Source: Myxococcales bacterium
GTDB lineage: Bacteria; Myxococcota_A; Polyangia; Polyangiales; Polyangiaceae
Length of the DNA: 39,342 nucleotides
Direction: 5' to 3'
NCBI GenBank assembly: GCA_012514535.1
Contig: JAAZAA010000006.1
Location: 1 to 39,342, forward strand
The translations under genes and the position numbers were made by a program. Below, in pieces: positions 7,116-27,774 of the stretch (position 1 is the first letter of the stretch; every line of letters starts with the position of its first letter). The notes beneath the pieces were generated by a model. The model was not told the origin of the DNA. It saw nothing but the letters and a program-made list of their open reading frames with translations, and did not search any database.

Positions 7116-9956
7116 ATGCAGTGGAAGTGGCCGCGCTCGTGGGCGCTCGGCCTCCGCGGCCTGCGCTCCAGAGGAGCTGGGAGCGCAGGGGGCGAGGATC
7201 CCGTCGGGTCCGGAGCGGATGCGGCTCCCACGGTCACGGGGTCGCGTCGACGGGGTGAGCGGTGGCGCTGGTGGCTCGCCGGGCTGGGCGGAGGCGCCGT
7301 CCTGGTGTGCCTCGTCTTGCTGTTCGCGCTCGGACCGTTGCTCAAGAGCCGCGCCATCGCCGAGGCGGCCAAGCGCGGCGTGGAGCTGGACGCAGCGCGG
7401 GTACGCGCCGGCTGGATGAGCGCGACGCTTTACGACGTGAGCCTGCAACCCATCGGCGTGTCGGCGCTGCGGGCGCGCTTCGCGACGGTCAGGGTGGGGA
7501 TCGGCGGGGGACTGGGGCTGCGAGAGCTGGAGGTGGCCGACGGCACCGTCGAGGTCGACGGCTCCGTGGAGGTCGTCCTCGAGCAGGTCGAGCGCTGGCG
7601 GAAGGAGTGGCGCGGGCGCGCCCGGGCCAGCGAGGGAACGTCCGCGAGCGCCGGGCCCAGCTACCGCGCAGCGGGGGTCGGGTTGGTCTGGAAGAACGCC
7701 TTCGAGCCCGGAGACGAGCAGCGCTGGGCGGGGCTCCAGTTCGAGCGGACCCAGGAGGTCCAGCAGGTCGGGCTGGATCACGTGGCCCTCGAGCATCCGC
7801 GGGGCACGGTCGAGCTGGCGGGCCTCAAGGCGCTGTGGCGGCGAGAGGCAGGGGCGGAGCGGCTGGTCGAAGCGAGCATCGCCGAGGCGCGCGTGAAGGC
7901 GAACCTGGGCGGGGACGACGCGGGGGCGACGGCCGCCCGGACGCGAGCGCCCGACGACGTGGACGGGAGCGACGCGGCGCGGAGAGCAGCTGAGGCGCGG
8001 GCGGACACGGCACCGACCACGGCCGAGGAGGCCGGCGGCCTGACGGCTCGGCTCCCCGCGGTGGATCCGGATCGGGGGGCGCGCTGGCAGAGGTTGCTGG
8101 GACGATTGGTGGGCGATCTGATCGAACGCTTGCCCGAGCAGGCACGCGTGAACTCCCTGTGGCTCGAGCTCGAGCGCGGGGAGCAGCGCCTGCACCTGGG
8201 GCCGAGCACCTTGACCTTGGACCGCGGAGCGGAGGCCCTCGCCGTCGCCCTGACGCCCCAAGGAGAGACCAAGGGCACGCCCCTCTCCGTGCGCGCCACC
8301 GTTCCCCGGAGCGGCAAGGGGTTCCGCCTCGCCGTGGAGGGCGGTCCGGTGAGCCTCTCGACCCTCGGCGTGCGCGAGGGCGACTTCGGGCTCGTGGGCG
8401 TCGGGCAGGCAGAGGTGGGCGGTGTGCTCGAGGTGGAGCTCACGGATGCCCCCACCAGCGTCCAGGATGCAGCCGCGCACGGCGCTCAGGACACGGCCCA
8501 GGAGGGGCTTCGAGACACGGCCCAGGAGGGGCTTCGAGACACAGCCCAGGAGGGGCTTCGAGACACGGTCGAGGCGGAGATCGGACCCCAGCTGAAGCTG
8601 CGGGTCGACGCCCGGCTCGCCCACCTCACGGTGCAGAGCGATCGCCTGGCGCCGCGACCCGTCAGCGTGCGGAGCACGCGCCTCTCGGGGAAGGGTCAGG
8701 TGGATTTGGGGGGCACGCGCTACGCCCTCGAGGAGGCGGAGCTCCAGGTGGGGGAGGCGGCGTTCCGGCTCGAGGGGGTCCTCGAGCGCGGCGCGGACCA
8801 CGTCGCCGTGCAGTTCCGAGGCGGCACTCCGCTGATCGCCTGCCAGACGCTGCTCGACTCCGCTCCCCGGGGGCTGCTCGACCGGGTGGAGCAGACCCGC
8901 ATGCAAGGGACCCTCGCCCTCGACGTCGGCGTGGCCTTCGACTCTCGTAAGCCGGCGGACATGAAGGTGCGCTGGGACCTGAAGAACGCCTGCCGCATCA
9001 CGGACGTCCCGCCGAGCCTCGCCCCCGAGCGTTTCGGCGCCCCCTTCCAGCACGAGGTCGTGGGGCCCGACAACTCGACCCTCCTGCACGAGACCGGACC
9101 GGGCACGATCAACTGGACGCCCATCGACGGGATGGTGCCCTACCTCGAGTCGGCGGTCCTCGTCTGTGAGGATGGGCGCTTCTTCCGTCACGACGGCTTC
9201 GACGCCCGCGCGATCGAATCGTCGATCCAGATGAACGTCCGCGCGGGGCGTTTCGTGCGCGGGGCCAGCACCGTGTCCATGCAGCTGGCGAAGAACCTGT
9301 ATCTCTCTCGAGAGAAGCAGATGTCGCGGAAGCTCCAGGAGGCGGTGCTGACGATGCTGCTCGAGCAACGGCTCAGCAAGCGGGAGCTGCTCGAGCTGTA
9401 CTTCAACATCGTCGAGCTGGGGCCGGGCGTGTACGGGATCCGCCAAGCGGCCCAGCACTATTTCGCGACCACGCCCGATCAGCTCACCCTCGCGCAGTCG
9501 TTCTTCCTGGTCTCCATCTTGCCGAGCCCCACCCGTCAGTTCTTCGACGCGGAGGGGCGCCTCAACGCCGGCCGGGCCGCGTACGTCCGCCAGCTGCTGC
9601 GCATCGCCCACGAGCGAGGGCGCATCACGGACGCCGAGCTCGAGCTCGGGTTGACGGAGGAGCTCCGCTTCGGGGTGCCGTACACTCGGGAGGAGGCCGC
9701 CGGGTTCGACGACTTCAGCGAGCACGACCCCGAATTCGACGTCGACGGGCCTGCCACGCGCACGGCGCCGCCCGTCGACGGGAGCGTCGCGCCCGGGGTC
9801 CACGCACCGGCCCCAGCTCCTCACGTTCCGCCCCCTCCTGCCACACCGCCTCCTGCCACACCGCCTCCCGCCACGGCACCCGCGCGCCGCGCCCCCTCGC
9901 CGAGCTCCCCGGCGTCGGCGACGGACGGCACCCCCCGGGTCCCACCGCTGCAGTGA
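7116..9956 (+). CDS. GT51 peptidoglycan glycosyltransferase with N-terminal AsmA-like region
   Basis: About 946 residues, four times longer than a monofunctional transglycosylase such as MtgA. An inner-membrane helix spans about 51-77. Residues about 85-650 are a large beta-rich region beginning like AsmA-type proteins (VRAGWMSATLYDVSLQP), interrupted by three copies of an octapeptide. The C-terminal catalytic domain (about 665-830) carries all GT51 motifs: CEDGRFFRHDG with catalytic E685, GASTVSMQLAKN, RKLQEAVLTMLLEQ and ELLELYFNIVELG. It would polymerise lipid II into glycan strands in the periplasm; there is no transpeptidase domain. A Pro/Ala-rich tail with PPPAT repeats ends the protein. 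The start is uncertain: ATG 7116, GTG 7095 (GGGGA upstream) and ATG 6987 are in frame. tadA follows after 17 nt. Confidence 0.9.
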   Translation: MQWKWPRSWALGLRGLRSRGAGSAGGEDPVGSGADAAPTVTGSRRRGERWRWWLAGLGGGAVLVCLVLLFALGPLLKSRAIAEAAKRGVELDAARVRAGWMSATLYDVSLQPIGVSALRARFATVRVGIGGGLGLRELEVADGTVEVDGSVEVVLEQVERWRKEWRGRARASEGTSASAGPSYRAAGVGLVWKNAFEPGDEQRWAGLQFERTQEVQQVGLDHVALEHPRGTVELAGLKALWRREAGAERLVEASIAEARVKANLGGDDAGATAARTRAPDDVDGSDAARRAAEARADTAPTTAEEAGGLTARLPAVDPDRGARWQRLLGRLVGDLIERLPEQARVNSLWLELERGEQRLHLGPSTLTLDRGAEALAVALTPQGETKGTPLSVRATVPRSGKGFRLAVEGGPVSLSTLGVREGDFGLVGVGQAEVGGVLEVELTDAPTSVQDAAAHGAQDTAQEGLRDTAQEGLRDTAQEGLRDTVEAEIGPQLKLRVDARLAHLTVQSDRLAPRPVSVRSTRLSGKGQVDLGGTRYALEEAELQVGEAAFRLEGVLERGADHVAVQFRGGTPLIACQTLLDSAPRGLLDRVEQTRMQGTLALDVGVAFDSRKPADMKVRWDLKNACRITDVPPSLAPERFGAPFQHEVVGPDNSTLLHETGPGTINWTPIDGMVPYLESAVLVCEDGRFFRHDGFDARAIESSIQMNVRAGRFVRGASTVSMQLAKNLYLSREKQMSRKLQEAVLTMLLEQRLSKRELLELYFNIVELGPGVYGIRQAAQHYFATTPDQLTLAQSFFLVSILPSPTRQFFDAEGRLNAGRAAYVRQLLRIAHERGRITDAELELGLTEELRFGVPYTREEAAGFDDFSEHDPEFDVDGPATRTAPPVDGSVAPGVHAPAPAPHVPPPPATPPPATPPPATAPARRAPSPSSPASATDGTPRVPPLQ
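8490..8561 (+). repeat. 24-bp in-frame tandem repeat x3
   Basis: Three consecutive 24-bp units (8490-8513, 8514-8537, 8538-8561), differing at one base, encode the octapeptide DTAQEGLR three times within the AsmA-like region of the glycosyltransferase gene. A change in copy number would keep the reading frame. Confidence 0.9.
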
Positions 9957-13344: not shown

Positions 13345-13348
13345 TTTG

Positions 13349-13422
<74 letters not shown>

Positions 13423-13550: not shown

Positions 13551-14426
13551 ATGAGCGACCCACCGACCCTCTCTGCGTCCGGCCCCGCTGGGTCCGGTCC
13601 CTCCCCGTCGAGTCCTCCCGGTGTGCCCGTGCTGTGCGGCTCGCTCTCCCGTTACCCGGTCGGCCTCGGCCGAGCCATGCACGAAGCGGGCTATCGTGCC
13701 CTGGGGCTCGACTACCGATATCAGCCCTTCCAGGTAGACGACATCGGCGCGGCCCTGGACGCGATGCGGACCCTGGGGATCCGGGGCTGTGGCGTCTCCA
13801 TGCCCTTCAAGCTGGAGGTGTTGCGCTATCTGGACGAGGTGGACCCGCTGGCCCACCGCATCGGGGCGGTGAACACCGTGGTCAACGAGGGAGGGCGCCT
13901 CGTCGGGTACAACACGGACGCCTGGGGGGCGCGCCGGGCGTTCGAGGAGGTCCGCCCCCTCGCCGGGTGCCGCGTGCTCCTCCTGGGGGCAGGAGGGGCG
14001 GCACGGGCGGTCGCGTTCGCCTTCGTCGCCGCGGGAGCGCACCTGACCATCGCCAACCGGGATCGCCGCCGCGCCGAGGCCCTGGCCCAGGAGGTGGGGG
14101 CCCAGGCCGCGGGGGACACGGACCTGGCCGCCGCGCTCGATCCCTTCGACGCCGTCGTCAACGCGTCGAGCCGCGGGATGACCGACGTCGATCCGACGAG
14201 TCCGATCGAGCCCTCCCAGTTGAGGCGCGATCTCACTGTCATGGACATCGTCTACAAGCCCATCTGGACCGAGCTGATCCGGGCGGCCGTCACCCAAGGC
14301 TGTCCGACGGTGCACGGCGGCCGGATGCTCTTGCACCAGGCAACCCGTCAGTTCGAGCTGTATACGGGCCGTCCGGCGCCCGCCGAACGGATGGACGAAG
14401 AGCTGCACAGGGCGCTGGCCGGGTGA
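13551..14426 (+). CDS. shikimate dehydrogenase-like protein (AroE family, atypical)
   Basis: A 291-residue NADP-dependent dehydrogenase of the AroE family. Conserved catalytic residues are visible: K87 in VSMPFK, N108-T109 in GAVNTV and N121/D123 in GYNTDAWG. The nucleotide site is GAGGAARA (147-154) and the NADP-selecting motif is NRDRRRA (169-175). The substrate-binding serine motif near the N-terminus is altered: SLSRYPVGLG stands where AroE has S-x-S-x-S-P. This resembles a group of AroE-like paralogues rather than the housekeeping enzyme. An extra 20-residue Pro/Ser-rich leader precedes the domain. It is monocistronic; no other shikimate gene is nearby. Whether it makes shikimate is uncertain. 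Confidence 0.85.
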   Translation: MSDPPTLSASGPAGSGPSPSSPPGVPVLCGSLSRYPVGLGRAMHEAGYRALGLDYRYQPFQVDDIGAALDAMRTLGIRGCGVSMPFKLEVLRYLDEVDPLAHRIGAVNTVVNEGGRLVGYNTDAWGARRAFEEVRPLAGCRVLLLGAGGAARAVAFAFVAAGAHLTIANRDRRRAEALAQEVGAQAAGDTDLAAALDPFDAVVNASSRGMTDVDPTSPIEPSQLRRDLTVMDIVYKPIWTELIRAAVTQGCPTVHGGRMLLHQATRQFELYTGRPAPAERMDEELHRALAG

Positions 14427-14545
14427 GCGGCGCCCCGCCCTTAGATCCGCCAGAAATAGAAATATTACCGTAAGATCGGAACGGTGTCCGCCTGCAGGGG
14501 CAGACCGAGGTGGGCCATGGTGTGCAAAATCTACGGCGGGTCCAG

Positions 14546-14570
14546 GAGCTATGACAGGACTGTCATGCTC
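14546..14570. repeat. inverted repeat ATGACAG-GA-CTGTCAT
   Basis: A 7-bp perfect inverted repeat with a 2-nt centre (14551-14566), extended on both sides by GAGC (14546-14549) and GCTC (14567-14570) with one unpaired T. As RNA this is an 11-bp stem with a bulge; as DNA it looks like an operator. Confidence 0.5.
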
Positions 14571-14890
14571 TCCCACGAGCGGCAGAGGGCCGGAGGAACG
14601 GGGCTGCCGGATGGAAGCGCAGCAAGGTCCAGGAAACGCCCCTGCGACGCTCCTTGGCATGCGACGTGCACATCCAGGACGCGTCGGCGACATCGTGTAG
14701 GTCGCCTCCTTGGCTTTCTTCCGCTTTCTTGTGCTTCCGGGGTTCCAGGAGCGGGCCCCGCACGCTTGGCTTGATCTTTTCGCCCCACCTCCCGGGGCGA
14801 CCGGGCTTCCTGACTTACCGGCTTCTCCCTTGGCTTTTCCACGAGCGCCGTTTCGTGCTCGTGACCGCTCCTCTTCGCTTCGTCGATTTT

Positions 14891-14930
14891 CGCCTCCCTA
14901 GAGACCTTTTCACCTCCCTAGAGATTCTCT
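14891..14930. repeat. 20-bp degenerate direct repeat x2
   Basis: Two adjacent 20-bp units, both containing CCTCCCTAGAGA, identical at 15 of 20 positions. They are part of the gene-free region between the AroE-like gene and the small lipoprotein gene. Confidence 0.6.
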
Positions 14931-14949
14931 GCCGAGCTTGGTTCCCGGC

Positions 14950-14971
14950 GGGCCGCCACGACGGGCGGCCC
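14950..14971. repeat. GC-rich hairpin GGGCCGCC/GGCGGCCC
   Basis: An 8-bp perfect stem with a 6-nt loop (ACGACG), no U-run on either side. It would be a stable helix in a transcript of either strand. Confidence 0.45.
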
Positions 14972-15290
14972 CGGCGACCTGAGCCGCGGGCGTTGCCTGC
15001 GGTGCCCTTGGATGCACCCTCTTCGGTCCGCTGCGCTCACGAGTTCAGCCGGTGCGACTGCCACCGCGCGACGGCTGCTCGTCCTCTGCTTTCCTGTGCT
15101 GACTTTGGTCCCGCTCCTTCGCTCCAGGCGGCCTCGCCGGCTGGAGCGGAGGGCGGCGCACCTCCGATCCCTTTGCTTCACCTTGGCGGGTTGCTTGGCT
15201 TGGCCCAGCTTCGGGCAGCTTAACTTCTTAGACTAGTCGATGGTGCAGACGAGCGGACGGCCCCTGGGGCGGTTCGGTCGGCCAAGTTTG

Positions 15291-15327
15291 CAAGAGCCCG
15301 ACGCCCTCCGCCGGGCTCTTGTTTTGT
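15291..15327 (+). terminator. intrinsic terminator (+ strand)
   Basis: Stem CAAGAGCCCG (15291-15300) pairs with CGGGCTCTTG (15312-15321) around an 11-nt loop and is followed by TTTTGT. There is no plus-strand protein gene for 865 bp upstream, so its natural client would be a transcript from the gene-free region. It also lies 75 bp past the stop of the minus-strand small lipoprotein gene, but in that direction no T-run follows the stem. Confidence 0.8.
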
Positions 15328-15400
15328 CCGCCATTTCGTTCGGCGCCGCTCTCTCGCGATCGTCGTTCGGACCAGTTCCGTCGCACGTCGAGAGAACGAG

Positions 15401-15604
15401 TCAGTCGCCCCGGGTATTCCCCTCGTCGGGCTGCTCCTGGGACGGGGCTTCCGTTTGAGGCACGCTCGGCTCCGGGGGTGGGGGCTCGTCGGGGGGAGTG
15501 CGTGGCTCTCCGGGAGGACCACAGGCCGTCGCGGCCAGAAGCAGGAGGGCGCCGCTCAGCTCACGAGCTGACCACGGCGGACGTGCATGGTACCTGGCGA
15601 TCAT
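15401..15604 (-). CDS. small Pro/Glu-rich lipoprotein
   Basis: A 67-residue protein. Residues 1-28 read as a lipoprotein signal: Arg-containing start, hydrophobic ALLLLAATAC with Cys28 as the lipidated residue. The mature 39 residues are disordered, rich in Pro, Glu and Gln. No domain is recognised. The ATG (15604-15602) overlaps the ATG of the divergent PDZ-thioredoxin gene by two bases, an arrangement that leaves no separate promoter between them. A much longer frame runs upstream in the same phase, but it is the shadow of the divergent gene. Confidence 0.5.
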   Translation of the reverse strand: MIARYHARPPWSARELSGALLLLAATACGPPGEPRTPPDEPPPPEPSVPQTEAPSQEQPDEGNTRGD

Positions 15605-16658
15605 GATCGATGGCTTGGCCTGGGACCGCTCCCGCCCCGGGGTGACCCCCAGCGGGCTCGCCTCCGGGGGCCTCCGGGCCGCCTTGCGGGCGTCCTGGAG
15701 CCTCGCGGTCGTCGTGCCCCTCCTCTGTTCATCCTGTGGCGCACCTCGGGGAACGGCGCAAGGCGCCTCCGGCCCGACGTCCTCGGCGGCGTCGCGGCCT
15801 GCGAGCTCGACGAGCGCCCCGCTGCCCTCCGCCGAGGAGGGAACCTCACGGGACGCAGGGCTTGCCAGCTCGGGGGGATCTGGGCGCACCGTCGAGGGGC
15901 CACCGCTCCCGGCCCTGCTTCATCCCCCGGGAGACAAACCCTGGCTCGGGGTCGAGTTGAAGGCGCTGCCGCGAGGGGCCACGGGGGTCCGGGTCGAGCG
16001 TGTGTTTCGTGGCTCGCCCGCGGACGCGGCGGGGATCGAGGCCGGGGACGTCCTCCTGGCCCTCGATGGGGAGACGCTTCGAGAGCCGCGGCAGGTGCAG
16101 GAGACCGTGGGGCGGAGCGCGCCGAGCGCCCGCGTCGCCGTGCTGTTGGAGCGGCTCGGGCGCCAGCGACTCTTGCCGGTGCAGCTCGCCCAGCTGCCGG
16201 ACGCGGAGGATCGCATGCGCCTGCACTTCGTGGGGCTGCGAGCGCCGGAGCTGGGGGCCCTGGCGACGGTGCAGGGGACCGGGCCCTGGGGGTGGAAGCA
16301 GCTCGAAGGCAAGGTGGTGGTCGTCGAGTTCTGGGCGCGCACCTGCCCGGTGTGCCGCTACCTCGTGCCCGTCCTGAACCAGTGGCACCAGCGTTATCGT
16401 CCTCAGGGAGCCGTCCTCGTCGGGATCACCACGGACTCCGTGCCCAGCGCCGACCGCACGGCGCGCGAGCTCGGCATGACCTACCCGGTGGTGAGCGATC
16501 TCACTGGCAAGACCAGCGCCGCGTTTTCCGCGAACCAGCTGCCGACGCTGTTCGTCGTGGACCGGCGCGGTATCGTCCGGGACGTGATGGTGGGTTTGTC
16601 GGAGGCACGGCTCGAGGATCTGCAGGCGCTGATCGAGCAGCTCTTGAGCGAGGCCTGA
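15603..16658 (+). CDS. PDZ-thioredoxin (TlpA-like) fusion, exported lipoprotein
   Basis: A 351-residue protein. The N-terminus is a hydrophobic export signal ending LLCSSC (Cys42/Cys45; the lipobox is imperfect), followed by a Ser/Ala-rich linker (50-105). Residues about 113-198 are a PDZ domain (PWLGVEL, then GIEAGDVLLALDG). Residues about 210-345 are a TlpA/ResA-like thioredoxin domain with active site TCPVC (C248, C251), the GITTDS segment and the cis-proline loop QLPTLFVVD. It probably works as a periplasmic thiol-disulfide oxidoreductase, with the PDZ domain choosing a partner. Start codons at 15603 (ATG) or 15642 (GTG) are possible; neither has a clear Shine-Dalgarno. The carboxyltransferase gene follows after 63 nt. 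Confidence 0.85.
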   Translation: MIDGLAWDRSRPGVTPSGLASGGLRAALRASWSLAVVVPLLCSSCGAPRGTAQGASGPTSSAASRPASSTSAPLPSAEEGTSRDAGLASSGGSGRTVEGPPLPALLHPPGDKPWLGVELKALPRGATGVRVERVFRGSPADAAGIEAGDVLLALDGETLREPRQVQETVGRSAPSARVAVLLERLGRQRLLPVQLAQLPDAEDRMRLHFVGLRAPELGALATVQGTGPWGWKQLEGKVVVVEFWARTCPVCRYLVPVLNQWHQRYRPQGAVLVGITTDSVPSADRTARELGMTYPVVSDLTGKTSAAFSANQLPTLFVVDRRGIVRDVMVGLSEARLEDLQALIEQLLSEA

Positions 16659-27344: not shown

Positions 27345-27774
27345 GACGCCACGAGACGATCCCGTCGCCGGGGAGCTGCTCGAGGTGCGGGCGCGGCGTC
27401 GCCAGCGGGGGTGCGGGCGCATCGTGTGCGTGCCCGTCGCGCAGTGCGTCGCGGGCGCCGGAGCGGTGGACGCCGCAGTGGTCGACGCCGCCTCGTGGGC
27501 GCTGGAGCGGTGGACGCCGCAGTGGTCGACGCCGTCTCGTGGGCGCTGGAGCGGTGGGGGAGCGGTGAACACTGGAGCGGTGAACACTGGAGCGGTGAAC
27601 ACTGGGCCGTGAACAGAGCCTCGTGGGTGCTGGATCGGCGGGGGGCGCGGTTCCCGTGGGTGCCCGTCGAGGGCGGCCCCGCAAGCGGGCGCGGGGCCGC
27701 GCCGTTGACGAAGGTGCGCGGGCCATGATGAAAGAAGACGACGTTGGCGGGCCAGCCGCCGCGATGTTCACGAC
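27345..27774. other. 430-bp intergenic region with minisatellite and GC hairpin
   Basis: Contains the two tandem arrays at 27460-27603 and a perfect 10-bp GC stem (GCGGCCCCGC, 27673-27682, with 27691-27700). The stem has no U-run, so it is a weak terminator candidate for the tyrosine cluster. No protein-like frame is seen despite open frames on both strands. Confidence 0.55.
27460..27603. repeat. minisatellite: 44-bp unit x2.2 then 15-bp unit x3
   Basis: Units of 44 bp at 27460-27503 and 27504-27547 differ at one base (C/T); a third partial copy starts at 27548. It passes directly into three exact copies of GGAGCGGTGAACACT (27559-27573, 27574-27588, 27589-27603). The shared GGAGCGGTG start suggests that the short unit arose from the long one. 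Confidence 0.9.

Follow-up and report, generated by a model that had tools for sequence, protein, structure and literature searches.

We identified a probable gene for a regulatory noncoding RNA, most likely not previously described, whose locus recurs beside the same genes across the Polyangiaceae. In the window (the whole 39,342-nt stretch of DNA analyzed, which comes from a Polyangiaceae MAG), it would occupy most of a gene-free region at positions 14427 to 15400. Judging from sequence comparisons alone, we consider it very probable that this part of the window is a noncoding RNA gene controlled by a sigma-54 enhancer and closed by an intrinsic terminator.

The region is located between aroE (shikimate dehydrogenase; 13551 to 14426, plus strand), which is the upstream neighbor in some genera only, and a TlpA-like PDZ-thioredoxin gene (PDZ-TlpA; 15498 to 16658, plus strand, start codon uncertain), which is a syntenic anchor throughout the family. 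The second syntenic anchor, a tRNA-Arg(ACG) gene (13348 to 13422, minus strand), adjoins aroE in the window. All three are context and lie outside the RNA gene. A short lipoprotein-like frame of 67 amino acids (15401 to 15601, minus strand) is convergent with the RNA. At this position, relatives carry a small CxxCH (cytochrome-like) lipoprotein gene without a Pfam match; the window copy has no CxxCH part, so the lipoprotein gene looks shortened here.

A sequence-only reading had described the region as gene free but ordered, ending in a terminator, and had proposed an undescribed structured RNA. The overall observation was confirmed. None of the five long frames has a Pfam match, and the 189–amino acid plus-strand frame is unmatched in syntenic relatives; no conserved reading frame was found. 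The four plus-strand copies of CTTGGCTT are present at 14709 to 14716, 14765 to 14772 (the earlier start, 14763, was off by two), 14829 to 14836, and 15194 to 15201, and neither strand of the 39 kb has a further copy. For the whole window, both strands included, the expected number is 0.47 copies, and 1 of 100 shuffles reaches four. The direct repeat is also real, with two 18-nt copies (94% identical, spacing of 20 nt) at 14887 and 14907. The Rfam search that had been proposed as a check gave no match at the gathering level in the region; weak matches (E ≥ 0.5) looked like chance and were rejected.

A direct DNA search with the region itself returned no homologue, because everything but the motifs changes too rapidly; therefore, synteny was used. 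In three genomes (G014, G022, and G007), the gap next to aroE combines a CTT-rich stretch and a strong terminator with a promoter-like TGGCAYG-N5-TGCT. When one of these gaps served as the query, versions at 91% and 80% identity were recovered from the same genus; the indels separating the three aligned versions do not come in multiples of three. The promoter occupies the same place in the aroE loci of three more genomes (G079, G074, and G070), with no terminator seen in the last of these. Promoter matches in G003 and G097 are located directly before PDZ-TlpA without aroE upstream, while in G029 the RNA precedes the convergent CxxCH gene. The notion of an aroE-linked RNA was dropped, since loci L225, L232, and L234 have the RNA beside PDZ-TlpA or its CxxCH neighbor and no aroE upstream.

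PDZ-TlpA genes were found in 85 of the 108 family genomes, and the DNA upstream of them was taken, giving 83 loci. In 75 of these, a GG-N10-GC sigma-54–type promoter (TGGCAYG-N5-TGC) was detected ahead of a stretch in which CTT outnumbers AAG. A stricter rule (CTT excess ≥ 8, promoter score ≥ 9 of 11) was met by 72 of the 83 loci compared to 0 or 1 of 83 in ten dinucleotide-shuffle sets. The tRNA-Arg(ACG) gene was also present in 14 of the 16 relatives’ loci scanned. Conservation of the locus in relatives with the same flanking genes, on which the sequence-only reading had staked its proposal, is thus borne out: the promoter, enhancer, CUU motif, and terminator recur in most Polyangiaceae. No such RNA was seen in the flanks of PDZ-TlpA–like genes from other families of the order, a comparison limited by the shortness of several flanks and by matches that mostly covered thioredoxin only. 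In some genera, aroE lies between the tRNA-Arg(ACG) gene and the RNA, which suggests insertion of aroE next to the tRNA.

The putative sigma-54–type promoter of the window, TGGCATGCGACGTGCA (14655 to 14670, plus strand; −24/−12, GG-N10-GC), matches 9 of 11 consensus positions, and its place and spacing are as in relatives. It is rather weak, with TGCACATC in place of TGCTNWAGG. When the 108 family genomes were searched with the promoter pattern, about 80 matches were obtained, and a reversed control gave about a fifth as many. One of the matches, TGGCACGCGACCTGCTTTAGG, is in the window’s own genome, where it is the sigma-54–type promoter of a pilin gene on the reverse strand of locus L236 (G000:C108:18500-22500). 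From the reversed control and the pilin promoter, we conclude that the pattern is a genuine sigma-54–type consensus of the family. RpoN-dependent transcription of the RNA is an inference.

Upstream of the promoter by about 100 nt, we found a two-part palindrome, GCAA-N3-TTGC followed by YGACA-N4-TGYCA, which we take to be a bipartite enhancer. In the window, the distal half, TGCAAAATCTACG (14523 to 14535, plus strand), is a degenerate YGCAA-N3-TTGCR positioned 28 nt before the proximal half, TGACAGGACTGTCA (14552 to 14565, plus strand), a perfect palindrome 103 nt before the promoter. In the DNA preceding the 75 promoters, GCAA-N3-TTGC is enriched (25 species versus 0.65 expected), as is TGACA-N4-TGTCA (14 cases with at most one mismatch versus about 0.3 expected). 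Both halves jointly, with up to three mismatches, occur in 58 of the 75 loci versus 0.3 expected. The half-to-half offset is exactly 29 nt in 60 of 73 loci; by the same count, it is 28 nt in the window. The proximal half clusters at ~68, 80, 91, 102, 113, and 124 nt from the promoter, i.e., in steps of about 11 bp, or one helical turn. Such phasing is what an enhancer-binding protein looping to sigma-54 polymerase would require. The window halves jointly contain two mismatches, and none of 1000 shuffles of the window’s upstream DNA was as good. While a high CTT count was one selection criterion for the 75 loci, the enhancer was not and therefore provides independent support, including for the weak window promoter. 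A small circularity remains in that the window is among the 75 loci in which the palindromes were found. A class-wide search with the distal half and the promoter pattern gave matches mainly in the Polyangiaceae. Seven genomes outside the family (L384 to L390) matched as well and may represent RNA loci, other activator targets, or chance.

With its start set by promoter spacing and its end by the terminator, the predicted noncoding RNA spans 14681 to 15327 on the plus strand (about 647 nt). The intrinsic terminator (15290 to 15328, plus strand) is real in form, as had been claimed: a stem of 11 + 2 pairs (about 15290 to 15322) is followed by TTTTGTC, a tail common to many relatives, and its folding energy of −21.4 kcal/mol (z = −4.45) was not equaled by any of 200 shuffles. 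A simple terminator scan did not list this stem. A strong terminator is present in 54 of the 75 loci, with an RNA length to the first one of 147 to 555 nt (median of 268 nt); by the scan used, the other 21 loci have none. The window RNA is long because two weaker candidate stops within it were passed over for the strong terminator at 15291. The plus-strand transcript ending near 15327 that the sequence-only reading envisaged is supported as a noncoding RNA by this comparative evidence; transcription has not been shown.

The window RNA contains 33 CTT versus 2 AAG, and the 75 RNAs pooled contain 1361 versus 122. Within them, CTTGGCTT is a family motif (54 copies in 32 species versus 2.1 expected), and CTTCCTTA occurs 24 times versus 1.2 expected. 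Neither was a selection criterion, and the expected numbers come from shuffling these same CTT-rich sequences. Six genomes belonging to a single genus (g14) have CTTGGCTT units within a well-aligned block. CTT-to-CTT spacings of 4 to 6 nt are enriched relative to both other distances and shuffles. According to folding, CUU is mostly unpaired (mean unpaired probability of 0.67), with GC-rich hairpins in between. The conserved element consists of mostly unpaired CUUGGCUU and CUUCCUUA and not of helices. The predicted window transcript has a more stable fold than its shuffles (z = −3.1), of which only 20 were made. No conservation of helices between genera was seen except for the terminator, and covariation in relatives’ loci is weak (1 to 8 compensated pairs per genus group, most pairs being invariant), so no consensus fold is claimed. 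The description of the RNA as structured holds for the terminator hairpin; it does not extend to the other helices, which vary from genus to genus with little sign of compensatory change. A genome-wide search for CTTNGCTT clusters was uninformative, being dominated by tandem repeats that resemble the antisense of lysine-rich coding repeats.

How such an RNA might work can be outlined in four steps. An enhancer-binding protein on the two-part palindrome, about 70 to 125 nt upstream, would activate sigma-54 RNA polymerase (at 14655 in the window); the transcript of ~650 nt (about 270 in the median relative) would end at the terminator at 15327. The pyrimidine linkers with their many CUU units would, as sequence and folding lead us to infer, be kept open by the GC-rich hairpins. 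An RNA-binding protein, perhaps of the RRM type, would then be bound and titrated by these units, and the signal sensed by the activator would alter the fate of mRNAs under the control of the titrated protein; this last step is an inference. We give the whole chain, an enhancer-controlled ~650-nt RNA that titrates an RNA-binding protein via CUU linkers, an even chance, there being no transcript, target, or binding data. We favor titration since the units are short and numerous and their number varies, a pattern shared with CrcZ (PMC8871633) and CsrB.

The identity of the protein is a separate matter. Hfq was detected in 0 of 39 genomes, while control genomes matched; myxobacteria are also described as lacking Hfq in the literature (PMC5568312). 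RRM proteins were present in all 39 genomes checked, and binding to short pyrimidine elements has been described for members of this group such as PTB (PMC3907290). Related families that yielded no such RNA have RRM proteins as well, which makes their link to the RNA only a guess. RRM proteins may thus be named as a candidate partner and no more; both the protein partner and the targets are inferred. It is doubtful that the CUU repeats of a sigma-54 RNA sequester a bacterial RRM protein and so represent a new class of titrating RNA. If they did, the Hfq-less Polyangiaceae would gain a global post-transcriptional switch working like CrcZ-Hfq/Crc or CsrB-CsrA and built on pyrimidine-tract/RRM binding as it is known in eukaryotes.

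The main rival to titration keeps the same sigma-54 RNA and has it act by base-pairing, with unpaired CUUCCUU or CUUGGCUU binding purine-rich stretches (AAGGAAG and AAGCCAAG) in several mRNAs, some of these stretches near ribosome-binding sites. The enriched CTTCCTTA is complementary to TAAGGAAG, which is close to the Shine-Dalgarno sequence; however, CTTGGCTT, whose exact conservation in distant genera would suit pairing, does not match the Shine-Dalgarno complement. Multi-site sRNAs are common, but the many short copies in variable number exceed what one pairing site needs. Base-pairing is possible but, in our judgment, rather unlikely.

Titration and base-pairing share one noncoding RNA, which the remaining explanations replace. 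The RNA could be a sigma-54–driven PDZ-TlpA leader in which the terminator acts as an attenuator and tlpA is expressed by read-through. In some genomes, for example at L225 and L232, the terminator is indeed located just before tlpA on the same strand. Across the 75 loci, however, the RNA has the same orientation as tlpA in 53 and the opposite one in 22, and in aroE-type loci such as L054, L057, and L061 a convergent gene separates the two, so that a leader is very improbable. We give no more credit to an mRNA encoding small peptides, one or several, with a secreted or regulatory role. In its favor are the length of the transcript and the fact that sigma-54 promoters could serve a small gene; against it, the CTT units have no codon phase, indels between congeners at 84 to 96% identity do not come in multiples of three, and no frame is shared with relatives or matched in Pfam. 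A decayed gene (the main alternative in the sequence-only reading) or neutral spacer whose terminator serves aroE, located on the same strand with its end (14426) 865 bp upstream of the stem, can hardly be upheld even in the absence of expression data, since loci without aroE upstream have this enhancer, promoter, motif, and terminator too.

CsrB and RsmZ are long RNAs that titrate a translational regulator through many copies of a short motif. Their motif, GGA, is placed in hairpin loops, whereas that of the Polyangiaceae RNA is mainly in linkers. GGA is not enriched in the window RNA (5 in 647 nt compared to 33 CTT, with 1 A-N-GGA), and by this count, which leaves loop position aside, the RNA does not fit the CsrB type. 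By sequence, the general features of a sigma-54 noncoding RNA, i.e., a −24/−12 promoter, an upstream enhancer in helical phase, a terminator, and no frame, are all present. CrcZ, CrcY, and CrcX of the Pseudomonadaceae, which bind the Hfq/Crc complex, resemble the RNA in having a sigma-N promoter on which an enhancer-binding regulator acts directly, a feature supported here by sequence comparison only, as well as a length of a few hundred nucleotides, a repeated short single-stranded motif, and a conserved neighborhood (PMC8871633). Their motif is A-rich and their partner is Hfq/Crc, whereas the Polyangiaceae RNA is CUU-rich, has other neighbors, and occurs without Hfq; the A-rich Hfq/Crc motif AANAANAA was found neither in the window nor in the 75 RNAs.

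Pxr of Myxococcus is likewise a sigma-54–promoted myxobacterial sRNA with a conserved neighborhood and no Hfq. It is about 108 nt long, forms three stem-loops, and lies next to nla19, unlike the predicted ~647-nt window RNA next to aroE and PDZ-TlpA; no repeated CUU motif is described in the accessible part of its description, and Pxr is said to have arisen at the base of the Cystobacterineae and is reported only from that group (PMC5568312). GlmY, a protein decoy (PMC7073468), and a quorum regulatory RNA of Vibrio fischeri (PMC10162802) are also sRNA genes controlled by enhancer-binding proteins, but both are from Gammaproteobacteria, and the Polyangiaceae RNA has no Rfam match: with Rfam 15 covariance models (including tmRNA, RNase P, 6S, and SRP), only tRNAs exceeded the gathering cutoff in the window and 16 relatives’ loci. 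Myxobacteria go unmentioned in the main text of three articles that surveyed novel structured RNAs (PMC11109978, PMC8632094, and PMC6429828). Within the open-access literature, we found no described family that includes this RNA, which would work like a sigma-54–driven sponge or sRNA.

Myxobacteria have large regulatory genomes and no Hfq. Pxr, the single well-studied myxobacterial regulatory RNA in the literature covered, is confined to another lineage. A family-wide locus in which enhancer, promoter, repeated motif, and terminator are precisely spaced offers a directly testable way to approach how these bacteria exert post-transcriptional control and perhaps what bacterial RRM proteins do.

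Repeats of another kind were observed elsewhere in the window. Positions 8490 to 8568 contain three copies of a 24-nt unit (DTAQEGLR) within a long transglycosylase-like frame, and positions 27449 to 27615 contain tandem repeats of 44- and 15-nt units, which encode VNTAPV-like peptide repeats within long frames on both strands.
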